IMG/VR virus record: IMGVR_UViG_3300009285_002938
Span: 1-39,245 of that record
Source: a virus
DNA length: 39,245 nucleotides
Strand: one strand, 5' to 3'
Positions 8,271 through 39,091 of this stretch are shown here, one piece after another (position 1 is the first letter of the stretch; every line of letters starts with the position of its first letter). The notes under the pieces were generated by a model. The model worked only from the letters and a program-made list of their open reading frames with translations, had not been told where the DNA came from and did no database searches. A program made the translations under genes and the position numbers.

Positions 8271-8279
8271 TGGTATAAT
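8271..8279 (+). promoter_or_regulatory. Extended -10 promoter for groES (TGGTATAAT)
   Basis: TGG plus TATAAT lies just after the transglycosylase stop codon, and exactly 8 nt separate it from the groES ATG at 8288, the same geometry as at 7291-7308. No -35 or Shine-Dalgarno is obvious. It suggests that the co-chaperonin has its own near-leaderless transcript. Confidence 0.65.
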
Positions 8280-8287
8280 TAACTCAC

Positions 8288-8590
8288 ATGAAAATTCAAT
8301 CTAAAATCATACCAGCTAAGAATGTAGTTATATTAACTCCACCTCAAGATCAAAAAACTAAGTCAGGATTATTGATTAGAGATGTCGAAAATAAAACAGA
8401 ATTAGGCGTGGTTTTTTGTATAGGTGAAGGTAAAAGACCTTGTGAGTTTAAAGTAGGTGATTCTATTGTATTCCGCCGCTATACGGACAATAGAGTTTTT
8501 ATAGAAGGAATTGAATTTAATTTTGTTAGGTTCAATGCAAGTGACCCTACGGTTAATGATGTACTCGCAATCGTGAGGATGAAAAAATAA
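8288..8590 (+). CDS. groES: Phage GroES-type co-chaperonin (Cpn10)
   Basis: This 100-residue protein has the length and motif order of GroES. The N-terminal strand and core read IIPAKNVVILTPP. A mobile loop at residues 18-32 contains KTKSGLLIRD, with the hydrophobic tripeptide LLI that docks on GroEL. LGVVFCIGEGKR follows, then a shortened roof hairpin, KVGDSIVFRRY, and a C-terminal strand NDVLAIV. In the family it forms a seven-subunit lid that closes the GroEL folding chamber. A matching groEL lies about 10 kb downstream, so the phage encodes both halves. It sits between the transglycosylase and lysis genes with its own promoter. Sequence divergence from host GroES is high, but the fold assignment is firm. 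Confidence 0.88.
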   Translation: MKIQSKIIPAKNVVILTPPQDQKTKSGLLIRDVENKTELGVVFCIGEGKRPCEFKVGDSIVFRRYTDNRVFIEGIEFNFVRFNASDPTVNDVLAIVRMKK

Positions 8591-11850: not shown

Positions 11851-11905
11851 GCTGTTAGTTTACTAACGGCATCTAAAAGCCATTCGCAAGAGTGGCTTTT
11901 TAAGT
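11851..11905 (+). terminator. Tandem hairpins including a rho-independent terminator
   Basis: The first hairpin (11851-11870) pairs GCTGTTAG with CTAACGGC around a TTTA loop. The second (11875-11900) pairs AAAAGCCATTC with GAGTGGCTTTT, with one wobble pair and a GCAA tetraloop, and ends in a T run. Together they end the small-gene operon 30 nt after its last stop codon. Confidence 0.75.
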
Positions 11906-11919
11906 GGAATTTTTGGTAG

Positions 11920-11925
11920 TTGACA
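11920..11925 (+). promoter_or_regulatory. -35-like TTGACA before the structured HNH leader
   Basis: A consensus TTGACA lies between the terminator and the structured leader at 11958-12048. The expected -10 window (about 11942-11948) holds only TAAGTT, a weak match, so this promoter is possible but incomplete. If used, transcription would begin near 11955 and include the whole RNA switch. Confidence 0.35.
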
Positions 11926-11957
11926 ATTTCTAAATAAAGGCGTAAGTTAAAGATATA

Positions 11958-12048
11958 TATGATCGAAACCTTATTTTTCCCACCTTTTTTTGACCTCCCG
12001 TACAGTGGAACTTCAGGGTTTCGATCATAGCTGTGCGGGAGGTTTTTT
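11958..12048 (+). promoter_or_regulatory. Two-state RNA leader controlling the HNH gene
   Basis: Two long stems interleave. Stem A pairs 11958-11970 (TATGATCGAAACC) with 12017-12029, 13 perfect base pairs. Stem B pairs 11992-12005 (GACCTCCCGTACAG) with 12031-12044, 14 pairs including two wobbles. Only one base separates the 3' arm of A from the 3' arm of B, too short to span stem A, so both stems probably cannot form together. Stem B's 3' arm contains GGGAGG, the ribosome site for ATG 12049, and is followed by a T run. Forming B would hide the site or terminate transcription; forming A would free it. Confidence 0.65.
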
Positions 12049-12561
12049 ATGAGAACTATCTTTTGGACTAAAGAAAAAATTTTAAATTCATTCATTTCAT
12101 ACACTAAGAAATTTGGAATACCTAATTCTAAAAAAATACCACGAAATATAATCCCTTCAAGAAATACAGTTTCACATCATTTTGGGAGTTGGAATAATCT
12201 TATTAAAGAAATTGGTTCAGCTCCTCGTCTTAGGGGTTTTCAAAAAGGACAGATTGTGGGACATAAATTCGAAAAAGGTAATACCTTTTGGAAATTAGGA
12301 AAAAGAATGGGAGGAATAAATAATAAGGGATACTATATTACCAATGGATATAAAAAAATTTGGGTTTACAAAGATAAAAAATATACATTTGAGCATAGGC
12401 TTGTAATGGAAAAAAAATTAGGTCGTAAGCTCTTACCTCATGAAGCAATTCATCATCTTAATGGGATCCGAAGTGATAATAGAGTTGAAAATCTTGAATT
12501 ATGGGTAAAACCACATCTGTCTGGAATTCGATATAAAGATTTAATTAGATTTTATAGCTGA
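12049..12561 (+). CDS. HNH endonuclease with N-terminal HNH-associated repeat
   Basis: A 170-residue protein. Residues 4-56 match the helix-turn-helix repeat often found in homing endonucleases ([18 protein letters not shown], then [14 protein letters not shown]). A lysine/glycine linker ([21 protein letters not shown]) leads to the HNH_3 core: [19 protein letters not shown], then [20 protein letters not shown]. The HH and N residues needed for metal binding are present. ATG 12049 lies 6 nt after GGGAGG, which is buried in the upstream RNA stem. Unlike the other three HNH genes it does not overlap a downstream gene. Confidence 0.9.
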
Positions 12562-12588
12562 GTGGTAACAGCTTGGTAGGGTTTATAT

Positions 12589-12942
12589 ATGAAATATTTG
12601 TGTCATTGCGGGAAAGAGATATCTATTTTAATATTGGGTTGGCAACAATACAAAAATGCTCATAGCGGGGATATTAGACCTTTGTGTATTTACTGTAAAT
12701 TATACTGTCAAGATTGCGGGAAAGAAGAACATGAATTATTGACCAATGACTTAAATGGTTGGATAGATGTGTTCCATATTCACTTAAGTACTGCCACAAA
12801 AGAAAGAGCGTTAACACAACTTTGGATTCAAATATTAAGCTCTGATAGTTATGATTCCATAAAAGGATATTATCTCCCCAAGACTGACTTAAAAAAGGCG
12901 TTAAGTCAAATAAGAAAGGTAAATGATGCCAGCATATCTTAA
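12589..12942 (+). CDS. Zinc-ribbon protein, unknown
   Basis: 117 residues with Cys pairs in the first third (LCHCGKE, then CIYCKLYCQDCGKEEHE), indicating one or two zinc ribbons. The rest is helical (TKERALTQLWIQILSSDS) with a basic C-terminal helix. It overlaps the primase-helicase start by 20 nt, so the proteins are probably made together. A DNA-binding accessory role in replication is plausible but not shown. Confidence 0.65.
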   Translation: MKYLCHCGKEISILILGWQQYKNAHSGDIRPLCIYCKLYCQDCGKEEHELLTNDLNGWIDVFHIHLSTATKERALTQLWIQILSSDSYDSIKGYYLPKTDLKKALSQIRKVNDASIS

Positions 12943-15304
12943 TAATCAGGAATATAAAAATCCACAAGAATATTTACAAAACAAAGGCTATTCACTGGCT
13001 TTGTGCGGGAGTGAATTAAGAATGAGATGTCCATTTTGTCAACACCCGAATGATAAATTTTATATTAACTCATGCAATGGTTTATGGCATTGTTTTCATT
13101 GCATGGAAGGGGGGAACTGGAAGCAGTTGCTTGAAAAATTAAATGATCCAGAGGCACAGGTTGTTTTAGTTGAACCACAACCTCAAGATATTATTTTATC
13201 CGCCATAGATTTAAGTTTAGTTGAAGAACAACATCTTGAGTTTAAAAAACAAACCATGTTAAAGAAATGGCTCAAGGATAAATGGGGGTGGAATGATAAT
13301 AGTACTGAATGGGCCAAGATTGGTTGGACAGGCAGGTATTTGACTATGCCTATTATTAACTGCCGGGGAGAGTGTGTCAACATAAAAAAGCGGCTTGATC
13401 CTACCAGACTTGCCTCAACAGATTTTAAAGGCTTTATCGGGGTTGCGGGGAGGTCAGCTGCTTTATATAACGAGCAGATACTTTATGACAACCCTGACTA
13501 CATTATTATATGCGAGGGTGAAAAAGATTGTTTAATTTTGCACCAGTATGGTTTTAACGCTGTTACGACTACCCAGGGAGCCGGAGGTTTTAAAAGTGAG
13601 TGGCTGGAAATGTTTAGGGAAATACCCAAAATATATATCTGTCTGGATAATGATAAATATGCGGTAAGCGGAAATACAGGACAACTAGCCGCTGATAATT
13701 TAGCTTCCAAGTTTAAAGATATTGATATTAATACTTTTTTAATTCGTTTACCTGATCCTACATACATTGCAAAGAAAATGGATGTTACTAACTTTTTTAT
13801 AGATCAAAAGAAAAAGCGGGAAGATTTTCAGGAATTAATGGCAAATGCCGAAGGGATGTCTTTAACTGAAAATGAGAATTTATTTCAAGTTGGGGGAGCG
13901 GAAACTGAAAACTTTGTAGCAGAGACAGTTTACAATTCTAATGATAAAGAACCGTATAAATTTTGTGTTTTTGACAAAGCGACAGGCAAAGTTAGTTACA
14001 AACTTTCAATAAAGGTTAAAGATGAAACAGTTTATCCTCTGGTTTCTCCCATTGTACACTTGCCGGAAAAGGCAGAATTTGTGGAAGAAGCAGATTTGGA
14101 CAAAGCTATTACAGATTTTATTTCAACTTACTGCTGGATGGAAGACAAGAATCTTTTTTTAGCTACTATATATATTAAGTATTCATGGATATTTGACCAG
14201 TACTCAGTTGTTCCTTATCTTCGTTCCTCAGGGATGCCAGGGACAGGTAAAACGAGGTTCAATGATGCTGTGGGGATTCTCTGTTACCGTCCAGTTATTC
14301 TAAACGGCGGAGTATCTGAGGCAGCGTTATTCAGGATTGTGGATATGTATAAACCCACTCTGGTGATTAATGAATTTGACAGGTTAAATAGTGATGAGAA
14401 GTCATTGTTTACAACAATATTAAATAATGGTTATGAAAAAGGGAAAGAGGTAGTTCGGGTTGAAGGAGAAAAAGTCAGGACACTAAAATTTTTTAAAGTC
14501 TTTTGCCCTAAGATTTTTGCTACTATTGACCGCTTTAAGGACTCAGCGCTGGAGTCAAGAATCATAAGCCTAGAGTCTAAAGAATTCCCGACCGATTTGC
14601 GGAACAACTACCCGGTTATTTTGGACGATGAGTACTTTGAAAAGGCAAAAAAGGTCAGAAATATGCTTTTAGGGTTCCGTTTTGGTCATTTTTGCGAGTC
14701 TGCCGCGAGTCTGCCGCGAGTCTGTAATTTGGATAGTCCAGGCACAAGCTCCACGGCTAACGGATTGTCAGAAAGCTCTAATAACAGACTCGCACCCGAT
14801 TTGATTGTTGTACCAATCCAATCACCTACTTTGCGAGTCTGCGAGTCTGTTATTCCGGAAAGGGGGGGTCTAAAAAAAATATTTTTAGACGTTTTGGAAT
14901 TTTCCGGACGGACTAGACAGACCTTTTATCCATTACTATCGGTCTTAAAACCAGAAGATATTGACCAGTTTATAAAATATGTTAAAGAGTACCAAAACGA
15001 TATTATTTCTTTAAGAGGAACAGAAGATCTGGGAATTATTGCCACTACTATAATTAGATTGTATCAAGATAGTCCTGAAGTGCTGGTCAAGACTTTGCGG
15101 GAAGAGGTGAATTTACAAATAGACAAAGAAATCAGCCCGCAAAAAATGAGGTGGCACTTAAAAAAACTTAAAATAGAAACAGATACGGTAGGACATCAAA
15201 ATATGAAGTTTTTAATTCTTACCCCGGAATGTGTTGCAGAACTATCAAATAAATTTATTCCCAGAGAAGAAGAAGACACTATTCTGGAAGGGTTAAATGG
15301 ATAG
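12923..15304 (+). CDS. Phage primase-helicase (zinc finger, TOPRIM, P-loop ATPase)
   Basis: A 793-residue replication protein. Residues 36-60 hold a CHC2-like zinc finger (CPFCQH, then WHCFHC). TOPRIM motifs follow: ICEGEKD at 196-202 and CLDNDK at 240-245, for metal-dependent primer synthesis. The C-terminal half is a P-loop ATPase with Walker A GMPGTGKTR at 437-445 and Walker B TLVINEFD at 479-486, presumably the helicase motor. It would make RNA primers and unwind phage DNA for a host polymerase, since no phage polymerase is visible. Residues 591-645 are unusually Ser/Pro-rich because the DNA there is made of repeats (see 14694-14890). The start has AAAGG upstream; ATG 12926 is an equal alternative. 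Confidence 0.88.
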   Translation: MMPAYLNNQEYKNPQEYLQNKGYSLALCGSELRMRCPFCQHPNDKFYINSCNGLWHCFHCMEGGNWKQLLEKLNDPEAQVVLVEPQPQDIILSAIDLSLVEEQHLEFKKQTMLKKWLKDKWGWNDNSTEWAKIGWTGRYLTMPIINCRGECVNIKKRLDPTRLASTDFKGFIGVAGRSAALYNEQILYDNPDYIIICEGEKDCLILHQYGFNAVTTTQGAGGFKSEWLEMFREIPKIYICLDNDKYAVSGNTGQLAADNLASKFKDIDINTFLIRLPDPTYIAKKMDVTNFFIDQKKKREDFQELMANAEGMSLTENENLFQVGGAETENFVAETVYNSNDKEPYKFCVFDKATGKVSYKLSIKVKDETVYPLVSPIVHLPEKAEFVEEADLDKAITDFISTYCWMEDKNLFLATIYIKYSWIFDQYSVVPYLRSSGMPGTGKTRFNDAVGILCYRPVILNGGVSEAALFRIVDMYKPTLVINEFDRLNSDEKSLFTTILNNGYEKGKEVVRVEGEKVRTLKFFKVFCPKIFATIDRFKDSALESRIISLESKEFPTDLRNNYPVILDDEYFEKAKKVRNMLLGFRFGHFCESAASLPRVCNLDSPGTSSTANGLSESSNNRLAPDLIVVPIQSPTLRVCESVIPERGGLKKIFLDVLEFSGRTRQTFYPLLSVLKPEDIDQFIKYVKEYQNDIISLRGTEDLGIIATTIIRLYQDSPEVLVKTLREEVNLQIDKEISPQKMRWHLKKLKIETDTVGHQNMKFLILTPECVAELSNKFIPREEEDTILEGLNG
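14694..14849 (+). repeat. Iteron-like repeats GCGAGTCTG within the primase-helicase gene
   Basis: Six exact copies of GCGAGTCTG occur: direct copies at 14694, 14705 and 14716 (11-bp period), an inverted copy at 14785-14793, and direct copies at 14833 and 14841 (8-bp period). The inverted copy and the fifth/sixth copies extend to a 14-bp inverted match (ATAACAGACTCGCA versus TGCGAGTCTGTTAT). Helically phased repeats inside a replication gene resemble the lambda origin in gene O, so an origin or replication-protein binding region is inferred. Confidence 0.6.
14868..14890 (+). repeat. AT-rich palindrome next to the iterons
   Basis: GTCTAAAAA pairs with TTTTTAGAC around a 5-base centre, giving a nine-pair AT-rich palindrome 18 bp after the last iteron and right after a run of seven G. 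A readily melted palindrome beside phased iterons is the layout of many phage origins. The DNA is also coding, so this remains a prediction. Confidence 0.5.
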
Positions 15305-16729: not shown

Positions 16730-17701
16730 ATGAAAAACAAATATAAGTTTTTAAGATTAAAAGGTAAAAAGATAGTTTCTGATAGTGGGAATCTTGAGTG
16801 GAAACTTAACGTGTGGCAGGTCTTTGAGGGTAATCTTAAAATGTGCGAAGATGGATTTCACTGTTCCAAACAGATCTATCAGGCTTTTTCCTATGTCCAG
16901 GGTGAGATATTAGCTGAGGTGGAGGTTAAGGGTAAACACCAATCTCAAGAGGATGGAGAAGTCTGGTCACAGATGCGGATAGTTCGAGCTTGGAAATGGC
17001 AGAAAAAGGATAGTGTGGCTTTGGCTATATTTGCAGCTGAACAGGTAATAGATATTCATGAAAAACGATATCCTAATGATAATAGGCCGAGAAAAGCGAT
17101 TGAAGCAGCTAGGGAAGTAATGGGAAAAGATACTCTTAAAAATCGGGCTGCTGCTGAGGCTGCTGCTGAGGCTGCGAGGGTTGCTGCTAGGGCTGCTGCT
17201 AGGGCTGCTGCTAGGGCTACTGCTGAGGCTGTTGGGGTTGCTGCTAGGGCTGCTGCTGAGGCTGCTGCTAGGGCTGCTGCTGAGGCTGCTGGGGTTGCTG
17301 CTAGGGCTGCTGCTGAGGCTGCTGCTGAGGCTGCTAGGGCTGCTGCTAGGGCTGCTGCTAGGGCTACTGCTGAGGCTGTTGGGGTTGCTGCTAGGGCTGC
17401 TGCTGGGGCTGCTGCTAGGGCTACTGCTGAGGCTGCTGGGGTTGCTGCTAGGGCTGCTGTTTGGGCTGCTGGGGCTGCTGCTGAGGCTGCTGCTAGGGCT
17501 GCTGCTGAGGCTGCTGCTAGGGCTGCTGCTGAGGCTGCTGCTGAGGCTGCTAGGGCTGCTGCTGAGGCTGCTGCTAGGGCTGCTGCTGAGGCTGCTAGGG
17601 CTGCTGCTAGGGCTGCTGTAATAAGAAAAATATCTAGGTGGATGAATGAGCATATATCAGAGTTAGAGGAGATTAACTCACGAACAACAAAGGTGATATG
17701 A
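16730..17701 (+). CDS. DUF7666-like protein with long Ala-Arg-Glu helix
   Basis: Residues 1-115 resemble the phage N-terminal domain called DUF7666 (KYKFLRLKGKKI, LKMCEDGFHCSKQIYQAFSY, GEILAEVEVKG, then MRIVRAWKWQ). Residues 139-297 are a nearly pure Ala repeat with Arg, Glu and Gly, written as AARAAAEAA-type units, predicted to form one long helix. A 49-residue higher-order copy is visible (ATAEAVGVAARAA at 163 and 212). The C-terminus (ISRWMNEHISELEEI) is an ordinary helix. The role is unknown; similar domain-plus-repeat proteins occur in other phages. The long frames on other strands and frames here are artefacts of the repeat. Confidence 0.8.
   Translation: MKNKYKFLRLKGKKIVSDSGNLEWKLNVWQVFEGNLKMCEDGFHCSKQIYQAFSYVQGEILAEVEVKGKHQSQEDGEVWSQMRIVRAWKWQKKDSVALAIFAAEQVIDIHEKRYPNDNRPRKAIEAAREVMGKDTLKNRAAAEAAAEAARVAARAAARAAARATAEAVGVAARAAAEAAARAAAEAAGVAARAAAEAAAEAARAAARAAARATAEAVGVAARAAAGAAARATAEAAGVAARAAVWAAGAAAEAAARAAAEAAARAAAEAAAEAARAAAEAAARAAAEAARAAARAAVIRKISRWMNEHISELEEINSRTTKVI
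17144..17620 (+). repeat. GCT-rich tandem repeat encoding the alanine helix
   Basis: About 480 bp of degenerate 12-15 bp units built from GCTGCTGCTAGG and GCTGCTGAG, with a larger duplication of about 147 bp. Alanine is encoded almost only by GCT, arginine by AGG and glutamate by GAG. The composition stands out from neighbouring AT-rich genes and indicates recent expansion by slippage or unequal recombination. Confidence 0.85.
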
Positions 17702-18638: not shown

Positions 18639-20270
18639 ATGAATACTACTCCTAGAATATTCCTTAAATTTGAAAATGAGGCAAGAGATAATCTAGCCAA
18701 AGGCGTAGCAATTATATACAGAGCAGTTTGCTCTACGCTCTCTCCTAAAGGACGGAATGTAGCTTCTAGTAGACAATTCGGCGCACCTATTGTAATACAC
18801 GATGGAGTTACCGTAGCTTCTAAAGTTCAAGATGCGGACCCGTTTGTAAATATGGGTATCAATTTAGTCCGGGAAGCTGCTCAAAAGACTAATGAAGAAG
18901 CTGGAGACGGGACAACTTCTTCAATCCTTATAGCTTATGAAATAGTTACCAGAGGATTAAAACTAATTGATTCCGGTATTAACCCGATGGTTTTAAGAAA
19001 ACAGCTCTACAAAGCATTAAATGATTGTGTAAAAGCCTTAAATAAACTTTCAAAACCGGCTAAAACTCAAAAGGATTTAGAGCAAGTGGCTACTATATCA
19101 TCCTCGGATGAAGAGTTGGCTAAAATGGTATCAGAGGCAGTCCATAGGGGCGGCGAGGATGGTTTAATTGCAGTTGAAGAGGCTTTCGGTAATGAAACTT
19201 ATATCAGTTATACCGGAGGGCTGACGGTAGATAAGGGATATGCCACCGAGTATTTTATTACCAATACTAAACGCCGGGAAGCAATTATAGAAAAGCCGGT
19301 TATTGCTTTGATAGATAAAGAAATTACCACTCAGCGGGAGATTGTGCCTTTGATTGAAACAATCATCGGATTTTCCAAAAATATAGTTATTATTGGTGAG
19401 GTCAAAGGTGATGCTTTGGGTATTTTAGTCAACAATAAAATGAGAGGTGTTATAAATGTTGTGGTGGTGGAAGCTCCCGGGTATGGATCTAATACTAAGG
19501 ATTATCTGGAAGATTTGGCTGTTGCCACAGGGGGCAAAGTATTTTCAAAAGAATTAGGACTGGACATTCAGGCTTTTGCCAACACATTTGACGCTTCCTG
19601 GTTAGGTTCTGCTGAAAAAGTGGTAGTTAATAAAAAGACTTGTTTAATTATTAAAGGCGATGGCGAGAAAAAAGAGATTAAAAAACAGATTGATAAATTG
19701 AAAGCTCAGAAGGTTAAAGCTAATTCATTGGCTGAGAAAGAAAGGCTGGAAGAGCGGATTGCTAAGTTAACCGGCGGAGTAGCAGTTATTAAAGTTGGTG
19801 CTAAAACTGATGTAGAGGGTAGGGAGAAGTTGGAAAGAGCCAAAGATGCCGTTGGAGCGGCTCAGGCGGCCTTAAAAGAGGGCATAGTACCGGGAGCCGG
19901 TGTAGCCTTCATTCATTTAATTGATGCCATTACGGAAAATAATGATGGTTCAAAATTACTCAAAGAAGTTTTATTACAACCTGCCCGTAAGATTATGATT
20001 AATTCCGGCGAATCTGATAAAAAGTTTTTAGGTTTCCCTTCACAAGTTGATAATTTAATTAAAAAAATACGAAAAGATAAAGATTTAAAGTTCGGATATG
20101 AATGTAACTCTGGCAAACTAGTAAATTTGATTGAAGCAGGTATTATTGATCCGGCTAAAGTAATTAGGTTGTGTCTGGAAAATGGGATAGGGGTGGCTTG
20201 TTCAATTCTTACAACGGATACTTTGATAGAAGTTGACGCAGTTAGCCAGCAGATAGGAAATTCAGCATGA
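18639..20270 (+). CDS. groEL: Phage GroEL-type chaperonin (Cpn60)
   Basis: A full-length 543-residue group I chaperonin. ATP-site motifs are intact: SPKGRNV (35-41), HDGVTVAS with D55, AGDGTTSS with D90, and AKDAVGAAQAAL with D403, aligning to the catalytic aspartates D52, D87 and D398 of E. coli GroEL. The hinge/apical regions (GLTVDKGYATEYF, EAPGYGSNTKDYLEDLAVAT) and RIAKLTGGVAVIKVGA are clear. The usual Gly-Gly-Met tail is missing; the protein ends in IGNSA. It would fold phage proteins in a ring chamber capped by the phage GroES at 8288-8590. It lies just before the terminase genes with its own promoter and is coupled to the next gene by ATGA. Confidence 0.95.
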   Translation: MNTTPRIFLKFENEARDNLAKGVAIIYRAVCSTLSPKGRNVASSRQFGAPIVIHDGVTVASKVQDADPFVNMGINLVREAAQKTNEEAGDGTTSSILIAYEIVTRGLKLIDSGINPMVLRKQLYKALNDCVKALNKLSKPAKTQKDLEQVATISSSDEELAKMVSEAVHRGGEDGLIAVEEAFGNETYISYTGGLTVDKGYATEYFITNTKRREAIIEKPVIALIDKEITTQREIVPLIETIIGFSKNIVIIGEVKGDALGILVNNKMRGVINVVVVEAPGYGSNTKDYLEDLAVATGGKVFSKELGLDIQAFANTFDASWLGSAEKVVVNKKTCLIIKGDGEKKEIKKQIDKLKAQKVKANSLAEKERLEERIAKLTGGVAVIKVGAKTDVEGREKLERAKDAVGAAQAALKEGIVPGAGVAFIHLIDAITENNDGSKLLKEVLLQPARKIMINSGESDKKFLGFPSQVDNLIKKIRKDKDLKFGYECNSGKLVNLIEAGIIDPAKVIRLCLENGIGVACSILTTDTLIEVDAVSQQIGNSA

Positions 20271-23590: not shown

Positions 23591-23596
23591 TATAAT
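23591..23596 (+). promoter_or_regulatory. -10 box TATAAT for portal gene
   Basis: TG directly precedes TATAAT, and 7 nt separate it from ATG 23604. No -35 or Shine-Dalgarno is clear. With the minus-strand box at 23556-23561 it forms a divergent promoter pair in a 54-bp interval. Confidence 0.6.
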
Positions 23597-23603
23597 TAAA
23601 ATA

Positions 23604-25664
23604 ATGCTAACTTCGCCTAATTTCTCCCAGCCACTTTCAAATGATGAAAGGATCGAGGGCCCTCTTGATGAGGGTATGGATGATGAGCCTTTATCCATTG
23701 ATTTATCCGATGAGGATGTCTTGCGTTTGATAAGAAAAACTATTGAACAAGCTGAGATATTTTGGAATAAAGAATTAGAGATAGATAAGGTTAGAGAGAA
23801 GGCGGAAACCTATTATCTAGGGAAAACCCTCAACGAAGAGGATTTATATGAGCATCAAGTGCCATATAAAAACAACCGGATTTTAACCGCTATTGAGATT
23901 TTAGTCCCCTTAATTAACTCGCAATTTGCCCAACCTATTGTTACAGAGGCAGAGGATACAGATGAGTCAAGAGAGTTGGCAAGAGATTTGGAGAATGTGT
24001 TACTCGCTAAAGTTGAGGATCTATATCTTAAGGCTCGGTTTGCCATGTGTGCCAGACATCTATTGATAGGATACAGGAACGCTATCTTAAAGTATCGTTT
24101 TGATCCTAATATTGGCAAAAAGACTCCCGATGGCACCAGAAAAGGCGGGGTAGTAGTTGAGGTAGTTAGACCTGCCAAGGTAGTTTTTTCGGAGGGTGCA
24201 TCAGATCCAGATAACATCCCCGTTATTGCCGAGTATATGGATGATTTAACTAGGGAAGAGATACTATTTAAGTTCCCCGAAAAGAAAGCGGAATTGTTTG
24301 CTCATTGGGGGATAAAAGTAGGTACCAAAGCCCAGCTTGCCAAAAAAGAAGGGTATATAGAGGTTTACTTTACTTACTATGATAGCCAGGGTGAACAACA
24401 GGAAGGCGTGGCCTGGAAGTTAGACGATATATTGCTGGGCAAGCATAAAAACCCCAACTATAACTATGATGAATATCAGCAAATGCCGGATGGTAAGTAT
24501 AGAGCATTAAACTTCTTTGATAAACCCAAAAAGCCCTACATTATTATAAATCATACTAACTTAGGTAAATATGTGATTGATGACACCTCGCTGGCAGAAC
24601 AAGCCCATACTCAACAGGATGTATTGGAAAAACGTGGCAGGCAGATAGTGGAAAATGCGGATCAAGCCTCGGCAGGACTAGTTTTAAACTCCAATATGAT
24701 TTCACAGGATGATGCCAAAAAGATTATTGGTGATCCGTCTGAAAAGTTAATGGTGGCAGGAGATGTCAGGTCGGCAGCAGCCAGGCTTCCATATAATGCT
24801 TTGCCCAACTATGTATTAAATGATAAAGTTGATGCTAGGGGCGAGATTGATAATATCTTCGGCGCTAACGCTCCTGTCCGGGGTGAAAACTCAGGAATTG
24901 AGACATTAGGTCAGGAAGTGATGTCACAACGGGCCAATATGGGTAGGTTGCAGACTGTTACCGATGCCCTGGAGGATGCTGCCGACAAACTTTATAAAGC
25001 CTTCGTCCAGATGATGAAAGTATACATGGATGAGGAGGAAATTATCAGGTTTACACCATCAGAGGGTAAGACTAGGTTTATTAAATGGTCACAGGCTAAA
25101 ATAGAAGATGGAGTACAAGTTAGAGTTAAGGCTGGGTCAGCCTTGCCTAAAGATAAATTTGCCTTAAAGAATGAAACAATACAGGCCATAGCCATTCTTG
25201 ACCCTTTGTCTATAGCCGAAGGGTTAGATAAGCCTAATCCTAAAGAATGGGCTAAAAGATTAGTCTATTACAGATTCTTTATGGATAAGTATTTAGCGGA
25301 GATTTTAGGAGATGAAGGGTCGGGAGGAGTAGATTCTCAGGCTATGGGAGATTTACAGGTTTTGATGAGTGGACAAACTCCGCCAGTGCCGGATGCGCCG
25401 TCTAAAGAATACATTGCTACTATAGAAAAGTTTATGTCCTCTCCCGGGTTCCAGCAATTACAAGATCCTAATATTAAACAGGCTATAGTGGAGTTTGCAA
25501 AAGCGGTAATGGCAAAAGCTCAACAGGGAATGGGAGAGGGTGAGCAGCCAGTTACGCCGACAGAGCAACCACTAGCAGGAGAGGAAGCACCAGTAGAAAC
25601 CCCTACTCCTGGAGGTGGTATAATTAGTAAGTTGAGAGGTTTATTTGGAGGAGGACAAACTTAA
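23604..25664 (+). CDS. Portal protein
   Basis: A 686-residue protein right after terL, of the size of P22-like portals. It begins with an acidic region (DLSDEDVLRLIRKTIEQAE) and contains a central mixed domain (ILKYRFDPNIGKK, VVVEVVRPAKVVFSEGASD), a long helical core (LEKRGRQIVENADQASAGL, RGEIDNIFGANAPV), and a low-complexity Gln/Pro/Gly-rich C-terminus (QPVTPTEQPLAGEEAPVE) typical of portal tails. The portal ring forms the DNA entry vertex. It has its own leaderless-type promoter and is followed by a tiny gene and the capsid gene. Confidence 0.85.
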   Translation: MLTSPNFSQPLSNDERIEGPLDEGMDDEPLSIDLSDEDVLRLIRKTIEQAEIFWNKELEIDKVREKAETYYLGKTLNEEDLYEHQVPYKNNRILTAIEILVPLINSQFAQPIVTEAEDTDESRELARDLENVLLAKVEDLYLKARFAMCARHLLIGYRNAILKYRFDPNIGKKTPDGTRKGGVVVEVVRPAKVVFSEGASDPDNIPVIAEYMDDLTREEILFKFPEKKAELFAHWGIKVGTKAQLAKKEGYIEVYFTYYDSQGEQQEGVAWKLDDILLGKHKNPNYNYDEYQQMPDGKYRALNFFDKPKKPYIIINHTNLGKYVIDDTSLAEQAHTQQDVLEKRGRQIVENADQASAGLVLNSNMISQDDAKKIIGDPSEKLMVAGDVRSAAARLPYNALPNYVLNDKVDARGEIDNIFGANAPVRGENSGIETLGQEVMSQRANMGRLQTVTDALEDAADKLYKAFVQMMKVYMDEEEIIRFTPSEGKTRFIKWSQAKIEDGVQVRVKAGSALPKDKFALKNETIQAIAILDPLSIAEGLDKPNPKEWAKRLVYYRFFMDKYLAEILGDEGSGGVDSQAMGDLQVLMSGQTPPVPDAPSKEYIATIEKFMSSPGFQQLQDPNIKQAIVEFAKAVMAKAQQGMGEGEQPVTPTEQPLAGEEAPVETPTPGGGIISKLRGLFGGGQT

Positions 25665-29218: not shown

Positions 29219-29227
29219 TGGTATAAT
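29219..29227 (+). promoter_or_regulatory. Extended -10 promoter (TGGTATAAT)
   Basis: Identical in core to the groES element at 8271. Six nt separate it from ATG 29234. Confidence 0.6.
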
Positions 29228-29233
29228 ATATTT

Positions 29234-29749
29234 ATGGCAAGGATTGCTGAATCACAGTATATAGATGGAAATTACAAGACTATCGGTAACCTCGGTTTAA
29301 TTACCAAAAAAACAGTCACTTTTGCTGGCGGAACGACTAACGCTTGGGGAGATGATGGCGGAACGTTGGATGCTGGTGTATTATTTACAGTAACCGGCTT
29401 AGTCTTTTGTAAGCTCTTAGCCGTTTGTAAGGGGACAAGTTTAACCTCAGATGGCGCAGCTACAATTTCAGTTGGGATTACAGGAGATACCGCAATTTTT
29501 TTGCCTGTTGAAACTGCCACTCAAATAGATGATGGACAAATATGGTTTAATGATGCCGCTAATGCCACTTATGGAATTATTGGTGAGGAAAGTGCGGCAA
29601 TAGACAACTTACCAGAATATGCCCTTAATGGAAATGACATAATTTTGACTGTGGCGGGAGGAGCTAATGTAACGGGTGGAATACTTGATATTTATGCAAT
29701 CTGGAACCCCATTTCTCCAGATGCGAATTTAGTAGACGCAGGTAATTAG
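29234..29749 (+). CDS. Putative virion structural protein, beta-rich
   Basis: A 171-residue protein composed largely of beta strands with Gly/Thr/Asn turns (KKTVTFAGGTTNAWGDDGG, DIILTVAGGANVTGGILDIY). This composition fits small phage capsid or tail decoration proteins. It has its own promoter, and the next gene has a separate box too. The specific function is unknown. Confidence 0.65.
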   Translation: MARIAESQYIDGNYKTIGNLGLITKKTVTFAGGTTNAWGDDGGTLDAGVLFTVTGLVFCKLLAVCKGTSLTSDGAATISVGITGDTAIFLPVETATQIDDGQIWFNDAANATYGIIGEESAAIDNLPEYALNGNDIILTVAGGANVTGGILDIYAIWNPISPDANLVDAGN

Positions 29750-29751
29750 AG

Positions 29752-29757
29752 TATAAT
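29752..29757 (+). promoter_or_regulatory. -10 box TATAAT before coiled-coil gene
   Basis: TATAAT followed by 8 nt and ATG 29766. No extended TG and no clear -35. The geometry matches the other leaderless-type promoters. Confidence 0.5.
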
Positions 29758-29765
29758 TAATCTGT

Positions 29766-30596
29766 ATGCGCGATATATCCTCTATTAAAGACAGGTTAAA
29801 GGATTCTCAACCTCAGATTCATTCTCAAAGAGAAAAAAATATTATCTCAGTTAGATTAGATGAAATTTCCAAAGACCCTATTATAAAGGAAACTAAAATA
29901 TTATCTGCTATGAGGCAGAAATTTAAAGTTAATATACAGGCAAAACAAAAAGAGCTTAATAGTTTAGTTGATACTATTACTAGGAATAGACAACTTGCCT
30001 CGGATGAAATAGAAAAGGTTTTAAAAGAATCCCGGGCTAAGGCCAGTAAACTAATTTCCGAGGCAGAAGCTATCAAATACGAGGCTGATAATTTGTTAAA
30101 AGAGCAGATTAACAGAAAAGAAAAGTTAGATGAGTTAGAACAGGAAGTTACAAAAAGAGAAACCGATAATTCCTCAAAAGAGGTCTATATCAAGCAAATG
30201 ATACAGAAAGCCACTAAACAGGAGGAAACTACCCAAAAAAACCTATTGTTATCAGAAAAACACTACCAGGAGGCCCTAGATTGCTATATTTCGGCTGTTT
30301 CTTTACTTACCCTAGCAGTAGACCATTTAGAAAACATGGCTAAAATTAGAAAAGAGGTATCGGAGGTTATCTATCAGAAACTGGAGAAAATTGGTATAAT
30401 AGAGAAAAGAGTTATCACTTTAATCAAACTAATTGATGGAGATAAACTCTTATTGCAACAGAAAGCCATAGAGCTTCAAGATAAAGAGAAGTTATTAAAA
30501 GACCGCCGGCAACAGCTTGAGCGGGTTGATAAAGAATTGAAACAAAAATGGCAGACATATTCGGACCAACATCTTCACATGGGCAAGGCCACCTAG
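29766..30596 (+). CDS. Long coiled-coil protein
   Basis: 276 residues, almost all helical with heptad-like spacing (IQAKQKELNSLVDTITRNRQ, EQEVTKRETDNSSKEVYIKQ, KEKLLKDRRQQLERVDKELK). One weakly hydrophobic helix near DCYISAVSLLTLAVDHLENM is too polar to be a confident membrane span. Its last 49 bases overlap the next gene in another frame. A second, shorter coiled-coil gene occurs at 32899. Possible roles are a fibre chaperone, a tape-measure-like spacer or an assembly factor; none is proven. Confidence 0.65.
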   Translation: MRDISSIKDRLKDSQPQIHSQREKNIISVRLDEISKDPIIKETKILSAMRQKFKVNIQAKQKELNSLVDTITRNRQLASDEIEKVLKESRAKASKLISEAEAIKYEADNLLKEQINRKEKLDELEQEVTKRETDNSSKEVYIKQMIQKATKQEETTQKNLLLSEKHYQEALDCYISAVSLLTLAVDHLENMAKIRKEVSEVIYQKLEKIGIIEKRVITLIKLIDGDKLLLQQKAIELQDKEKLLKDRRQQLERVDKELKQKWQTYSDQHLHMGKAT

Positions 30597-33327: not shown

Positions 33328-33333
33328 TATAAT
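33325..33333 (+). promoter_or_regulatory. Extended -10 promoter (TGATATAAT)
   Basis: The element overlaps the TGA stop of the coiled-coil gene and lies 7 nt before ATG 33341. It has the same core as the elements at 7291 and 18606. Confidence 0.6.
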
Positions 33334-33340
33334 TTAGTTA

Positions 33341-33676
33341 ATGGCTAATGATTCTTTTTCTCGTGATGGGAATTTTGTACCCGATATTATTACCACCAGA
33401 GGCCGTTCCGTATCTTATGAAGATACCAACTTTCTTACAGGTGATTCGCCTGTTGTTTTAGATATTAATACCGACCTGGAAAGAAATGGGCGGGATGGAT
33501 ATATTGCTAACGATGGGGTGGGAAATTTTACAGTTGAAATATCTAATGACGGGGCTAATTATGGTGGAATCCATACTATTAAAGCAGGAGAAATATTAGA
33601 GTTAGCAGGAGTTAATCTTGATAAAATAAGAATTACCTGGATTTCAAATTCAAGCTACAGGGTATTTATTATTTAA
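33341..33676 (+). CDS. Putative small virion protein, 111 aa
   Basis: A beta-rich protein (VVLDINTDLERNGRDGYIAN, DGVGNFTVEISNDGANYGGI, TIKAGEILELAGVNLDKIRI) with the pattern of a small jelly-roll or phage-fibre accessory domain. It has its own leaderless-type promoter. The next gene starts one base after its stop. The specific role is unknown. Confidence 0.6.
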   Translation: MANDSFSRDGNFVPDIITTRGRSVSYEDTNFLTGDSPVVLDINTDLERNGRDGYIANDGVGNFTVEISNDGANYGGIHTIKAGEILELAGVNLDKIRITWISNSSYRVFII

Positions 33677-38477: not shown

Positions 38478-38496
38478 TATAGTTAGAGGTTCAATG

Positions 38497-38528
38497 AAAC
38501 CCAGGCGATTTTCGCCTGGGTTTTTTTT
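38497..38528 (+). terminator. Strong rho-independent terminator
   Basis: AAACCCAGGCGA pairs with TCGCCTGGGTTT (12 bp) around a TTT loop and ends in an eight-T run. It is the strongest terminator in the window and closes the scaffold-like operon. The HNH gene starts 14 nt after the T run. Confidence 0.85.
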
Positions 38529-38542
38529 AATAGAAAAAAGCT

Positions 38543-39091
38543 ATGTCATTTACATCAGAAACAGCAAAAATATATGGAATCCAAAAGGGACAAAAGCCTT
38601 GGAATACAGGATTGAAAGGATATACAAATACAGGTTCTTTTAAAAAAGGACAAGTTTCTCCTCGTAAAGGTATTAAATTAACCCAAGAAATAAAAAATAA
38701 ATTATCTTTAAGCCATATTGGAAAAAATATAGGGAAAAAACCAATATGGATAGGAAAAAAAATTAGTGCTTCAAAAATGGGGAAACCACAACCATGGAAT
38801 AGAGGAGAAAAAAATTATTTATGGAAAGGTGGAATTACGCCCATTAATACAGCAATAAGAGAATCTTTAGAATATGAGGAATGGAGAAGATCGGTTTTTG
38901 AGAGAGATAATTATACCTGTCAAGGATGTGGACAAGTTGGTGGCTATTTAGAAGCTGATCATATTAAACCATTTAGTATTTATATAGATTTGAGATTTGA
39001 ATTAAGTAATGGTAGAACTTTTTGTAAACTCTGTCATATAAAACTTGGATGGCGTGGATCACATATAAAAAGGGAGATTCAAAATGCTTAG
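38543..39091 (+). CDS. HNH homing endonuclease (NUMOD3 repeats + HNH)
   Basis: A 182-residue protein. Repeated Lys/Gly motifs of NUMOD3 type fill residues 12-100 (IQKGQKPWNTGLKGYTNTG, SLSHIGKNIG, ISASKMGKPQPWNRG). The nuclease core is WRRSVFERDNYTCQGCG, then YLEADHIKPFSIY, LSNGRTFCKLCHIKLG: a canonical HNH with two zinc-binding cysteine pairs and the catalytic DH. It ends 8 nt inside the next virion gene. It is a different HNH subfamily from the three HNH_3 enzymes earlier in the window, indicating independent arrival. Confidence 0.92.
   Translation: MSFTSETAKIYGIQKGQKPWNTGLKGYTNTGSFKKGQVSPRKGIKLTQEIKNKLSLSHIGKNIGKKPIWIGKKISASKMGKPQPWNRGEKNYLWKGGITPINTAIRESLEYEEWRRSVFERDNYTCQGCGQVGGYLEADHIKPFSIYIDLRFELSNGRTFCKLCHIKLGWRGSHIKREIQNA

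Follow-up and report, generated by a model that had tools for sequence, protein, structure and literature searches.

We found that an HNH endonuclease gene in the viral DNA analysed here (an IMG/VR virus record of 39,245 bases, the whole of which we refer to as the window) is preceded by a leader in which two long stems, A and B, are interleaved in the order A-B-A'-B', and that the Shine-Dalgarno (SD) sequence of the gene is buried by stem B in the predicted fold. Our preferred explanation, which we consider probable, is that stem B acts in cis as a hairpin repressing this homing-type endonuclease. In transcripts entering from upstream, stem B would pair the SD, GGGAGG, with CCTCCC, resulting in poor HNH translation, and with stem B running into a T6 tract, transcription could also stop at the start codon. 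Stem A, which is complete before B' is made, would form first and would at most delay stem B or, by stacking with it, give a long H-type pseudoknot; the SD would remain buried whether the B hairpin or the pseudoknot is the final form. Stem A is left unexplained by stem B alone, which counts against this explanation.

The window contains terminase, portal, major capsid, primase, GroEL and endolysin genes, along with four HNH genes. The HNH gene downstream of the leader (Table 1) appears to encode an endonuclease of the homing type, as the original prediction had it, judging from its HNH_3 match, a match to the PHROG HNH endonuclease family (E 4e-22) and a weak homing-endonuclease repeat below the cutoff. 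The leader element lies between this gene and a probable intrinsic terminator belonging to the gene cluster upstream, and this terminator probably sets the element apart from upstream transcription. Since a gene for a 117-aa protein and then a primase/helicase gene follow the HNH gene at short distance, the HNH gene may be the first member of a primase operon. Elsewhere in the window we noted a phage-encoded GroEL (18639-20270), which in other viral contigs has homologues next to relatives of the terminase, and a 323-aa protein of unassigned family (16730-17701) with a long alanine-rich repetitive tail. Within the open primase frame, copies of the repeats GCGAGTCTG / CAGACTCGC are clustered in either orientation at positions 14691-14856; among them is a perfect inverted repeat of 15 bp, and the cluster may be an in-frame repeat insertion.

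Table 1. Features of the HNH gene leader and its surroundings (positions in the window)
Feature	Position	Strand	Description
Probable intrinsic terminator, upstream gene cluster	11875-11902	+	11-bp stem and T run; AAAAGCCATTC-GCAA-GAGTGGCTTTTT
Possible promoter	11920-11948	+	perfect TTGACA, 17-nt spacer, poor -10 TAAGTT (3/6); under the promoter-scan threshold
Stem A, 5' arm	11958-11970	+	TATGATCGAAACC
Possible leader ORF	11959-12030	+	23 codons, MIETLFFPPFFDLPYSGTSGFRS; read by eye; begins inside A
Linker L1, A to B	11971-11992	+	pyrimidine-rich, 22 nt; "sensor" of the original prediction; LFFPPFF in the leader ORF frame
Stem B, 5' arm	11993-12006	+	ACCTCCCGTACAGT, i.e., ACCTCCCGTACAG(T)
Inner 6-bp helix and loop extending the B hairpin	12007-12022	+	from the fold; 3' side made of A' bases
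Stem A, 3' arm (A')	12017-12029	+	GGTTTCGATCATA
Stem B, 3' arm (B')	12030-12043	+	GCTGTGCGGGAGGT, i.e., (G)CTGTGCGGGAGGT; contains the HNH Shine-Dalgarno GGGAGG, 12037-12042
T6 tract directly after stem B	12043-12048	+	terminator-like tail; also SD-to-ATG spacer
HNH endonuclease gene	12049-12561	+	170 aa; PF13392 HNH_3, E 2.6e-9; HNH_repeat PF18780 sub-threshold

Both stems are real and well beyond chance. They are present in the interleaved order and at the place originally predicted, as are the GGGAGG within B', the T tract and the ATG that follows. Stem A comprises 13 bp with 100% complementarity (15 bp counting two further pairs, one of them G-U), and stem B comprises 13 bp, or 14 with the inner T-G pair, G-U pairs included; 0-1 base separates A' from B'. 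Among stems of at least 11 bp, A/B is the sole interleaved pair in the whole 39-kb window, where the chance expectation per window from 100 first-order Markov resamplings was 0.08 interleaved pairs when stems of 11 bp or longer were counted and 0.01 for a minimum of 12 bp. Folding a 131-nt segment gave -35.9 kcal/mol compared to -25.4 kcal/mol for shuffles (z = -3.0), and 0 of 200 shuffles were as good. Another A-B-A'-B' pair, with 11-bp stems and a 1-nt A'-B' gap, was seen in L046 (4165-4215) just 5' of a 515-aa ORF; interleaved pairs of that length are near chance level in the 1.3 Mb covered.

The capacity of stem B to mask the ribosome site was borne out by the folding model. GGGAGG lies wholly in B', six bases 5' of the HNH ATG, which is an ideal spacing, and no other SD is present. 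In the nested ensemble 13 of the 14 B pairs have probabilities of 0.98-1.00 (inner T-G pair: 0.85), the HNH SD ranks first in completeness of pairing among the 39 genes of the window (pairing probability 1.00), and the HNH initiation region is also the most stable among these genes. As modelled, stem B has the look of a terminator-like hairpin that masks the SD, and it most likely lowers HNH translation. Stem B may also end transcription: its GC-rich stem leads immediately into a U tract, in agreement with the original prediction, and the T6 tail makes termination plausible. The short loop of a typical terminator is not present, the outer B stem enclosing ~23 nt with the inner 6-bp helix and a 7-nt bulge; stem B was not listed in a terminator scan with a loop limit of 3-8, and its apical part is long. 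The core of B, ACCTCCC...GGGAGGTTTTTT, was found in 30 other viral contigs, many of which read as terminator-like hairpins at this sequence, and none was seen as a copy of this leader. A promoter scan of the element returned no TATAAT or sigma-70-like promoter, although the phage's and host's own promoters may differ; as no late promoter was found within stem B, the release mechanism of T4 is not evident here.

HNH relatives in viral contigs reach identities of at most 71% over the short HNH core, and none of them shares the leader. Distant blastn searches against phages gave short matches to the HNH core only and no homologous leader, and three matches to the stem A pattern in viral contigs were rejected as unrelated sequence. 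A search for an empty site revealed no relatives of the primase, the 117-aa protein or an 83-aa protein in viral contigs; primase relatives were likewise not found in genomes, and related phages yielded one remote primase match. Judged by terminase, the closest relative is L082 (81%); in this 8.4-kb fragment we found nothing matching the genes that surround the element. Comparing genes at the same loci, RBS-proximal stems of at least 9 bp preceded 12 of 60 HNH relatives and 17 of 243 other genes (p = 0.005), and when only intergenic upstream regions were counted, 8 of 29 and 9 of 85, respectively (p = 0.036). This excess is sensitive to which start codons are called; it reaches significance at 8 and 9 bp and disappears once stems of 10 bp or longer are required. 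The tally of 12/60 grew from an earlier 12/51; the later set (10 loci) brought no further stem of at least 9 bp and so is no replication by itself. The counts are suggestive only of RBS-proximal stems being modestly commoner before phage HNH genes.

A true two-state switch, in which A and B exclude each other, the ribosome site is freed by A and the choice of stem is set by a signal acting at the pyrimidine-rich linker, had been argued from the one-base gap between A' and B'. The four arms of A and B share no bases and their topology is that of an H-type pseudoknot, so mutual exclusion is not required and the gap does not force it; the only direct conflict is between A and the full B hairpin, whose inner six pairs use A' bases. 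The proposed opening of the ribosome site by A did not hold up either: in folding without pseudoknots stem B wins, with stem A at an occupancy of ~0.3% (pairs 0.003), and when A was enforced the SD was still 80-98% paired, in weaker local structure. A switch would nevertheless agree with two strong interleaved stems, with the bases shared by A' and the inner helix of B, and with the order of synthesis, as stem A in the growing RNA is complete at 12029, ahead of B', and holds -22 kcal/mol until about 12041. This order would give A a possible kinetic role in the model, in which A could delay B and favour read-through. An antiterminator would share bases with a terminator arm, whereas here only the inner helix of B overlaps A'; a search of Rfam 15 with the element gave no gathering-score match and nothing relevant at E <= 5, and no homologues were found. 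A two-state switch is not established, and we regard it as unlikely. The same interleaved segments, with linkers of 22, about 10 and 0-1 nt, could instead form a long H-type pseudoknot as the functional fold, with A and B coexisting, perhaps bound by a protein (e.g., the endonuclease itself), and the SD shut as in T4 gene 32 or S15 mRNA. We hold this as a possibility, if a doubtful one. By reasoning, the geometry looks feasible, L2 passing across A and L1 bridging the two stems, and stacking energies of -21.3 and -31.5 together with a generic pseudoknot penalty place both stems at ~-42 kcal/mol vs. -34.0 kcal/mol for the best nested fold, a crude estimate that would favour both stems at once but uses one generic initiation penalty and leaves out loop geometry and winding of more than one turn with polymerase attached. 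Topology may in fact hinder stems exceeding one helical turn for as long as RNA polymerase stays bound. The pseudoknot and our preferred explanation share masking by stem B, and the explanations weighed here are not all exclusive.

If stem B were an intrinsic terminator only, ending either a short RNA (about 11955-12048) or read-through transcription, its overlap with the HNH ribosome site would be incidental. The GC-rich stem with T6 and the terminator-like hairpins with the same core in the 30 viral contigs agree with this, as does another HNH gene of the window (38543-39091; its protein weakly matches an IscB model), which follows shortly after a strong terminator-like hairpin and T run at 38496-38524 and has its SD outside that hairpin. 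We nevertheless think it rather doubtful, given the ideal spacing of GGGAGG to the HNH ATG with no alternative SD, and the terminator already lying upstream. A leader-peptide attenuator, which we find quite unlikely, would have a ribosome on the possible leader ORF disrupt A and, at the stop codon beside B', also B, with a stalled or absent ribosome allowing B to form and the linker being read as codons (L-F-F-P-P-F-F). The ORF begins in A and its stop (TAG, 12028-12030) directly precedes the 13-bp B' arm (12031-12043), and the weak candidate promoter, by the spacing of its TTGACA, might start RNA at ~11955, just 5' of stem A and just before the ATG. Several phage genes, mostly without SD, have TATAAT 6-8 nt 5' of their ATG (8274-8288, 23591-23604, 29222-29234, 29752-29766 and 33328-33341), which suggests a class of phage promoters whose mRNAs have little or no leader; unlike these, the leader ORF ATG at 11959 is preceded by TTGACA-17-TAAGTT only. 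Translation of the ORF is possible, but it has no strong SD, the -10 is poor, an open frame of this length is fairly often expected by chance, and it is hard to see why a phage endonuclease would be controlled by phenylalanine. It is also improbable that the inverted repeats act at the level of DNA, as protein binding sites or scars of HNH insertion and not as RNA structures. T4 intron endonucleases are described in PMC2988022 as binding operators at their own promoters, and a direct repeat, TATATATGA, at 11954-11962 and 12584-12592 (the latter copy holding the start codon of the 117-aa gene) flanks the leader and the HNH gene as a possible, weak insertion footprint; however, a 9-bp AT repeat is weak evidence, only on the coding strand does stem B end in the SD and T6, and the empty-site search gave no relative.

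A broader reading, offered tentatively, is that of a dedicated homing endonuclease leader in which the first-forming stem A times or tunes stem B, itself both terminator and ribosome-site lock, through a kinetic switch, a protein-bound long pseudoknot or translation of the leader ORF. The literature that we found holds no description of such multi-state control for homing endonucleases; what is novel here lies in stem A, and stem B is most likely a repressive hairpin of a known kind. If stem A is functional, it would represent a new timing-control layer for selfish genes, and if only stem B matters, the leader would be an ordinary if clean example. Repression by stem B would extend hairpin control of homing endonuclease translation, mainly worked out in T4-like phages, to an uncultured phage unrelated to these, and there is a hint that RBS-proximal stems precede phage HNH genes more often than they precede other genes.

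Among known systems, leader-peptide transcription attenuators resemble this leader in having a short ORF, alternative stems and a terminator-like stem 5' of a gene, but here the first stem shares no bases with the terminator arms and the leader ORF is putative. H-type pseudoknot regulators (T4 gene 32, S15/rpsO, SAM-II and preQ1) have the same A-B-A'-B' arrangement 5' of a gene. Several of these regulators have the SD on the 3' strand of their second stem. The stems described here are, in contrast, far longer (13-14 bp), with no Rfam match and no ligand or protein known, and T4 gene 32, presented in PMC3014915 as a pseudoknot regulator, is a different gene. The terminator that PMC2988022 reports within T4 mobE offers a likeness, in that a terminator-like hairpin limits transcripts of an HNH homing endonuclease gene; that terminator falls within the 5' part of the coding sequence, whereas stem B overlaps the ribosome site. 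The original prediction had called such an RNA device unusual for a homing endonuclease, and in this it was mistaken, as burial of the RBS in a hairpin is established for I-TevI, I-TevII, I-TevIII, segB and Aeh1 mobE in the accounts given by PMC2988022 and PMC3014915. For I-TevI, these accounts have a late promoter produce RNA without the 5' arm, with the others arranged similarly. The portions of the two reviews drawn on here contain no counterpart of stem A. Compared to the T-even hairpins, the phage and the endonuclease are different, no late promoter was found in the stem, and stem A and the T6 tail are additional. Common to both is a stable stem that, on upstream transcripts, holds the endonuclease SD in its 3' arm (PMC2988022, PMC3014915), which for the leader described here is GGGAGG in B'. 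By this analogy, stem B fits the kind of control known from I-TevI and Aeh1 mobE.
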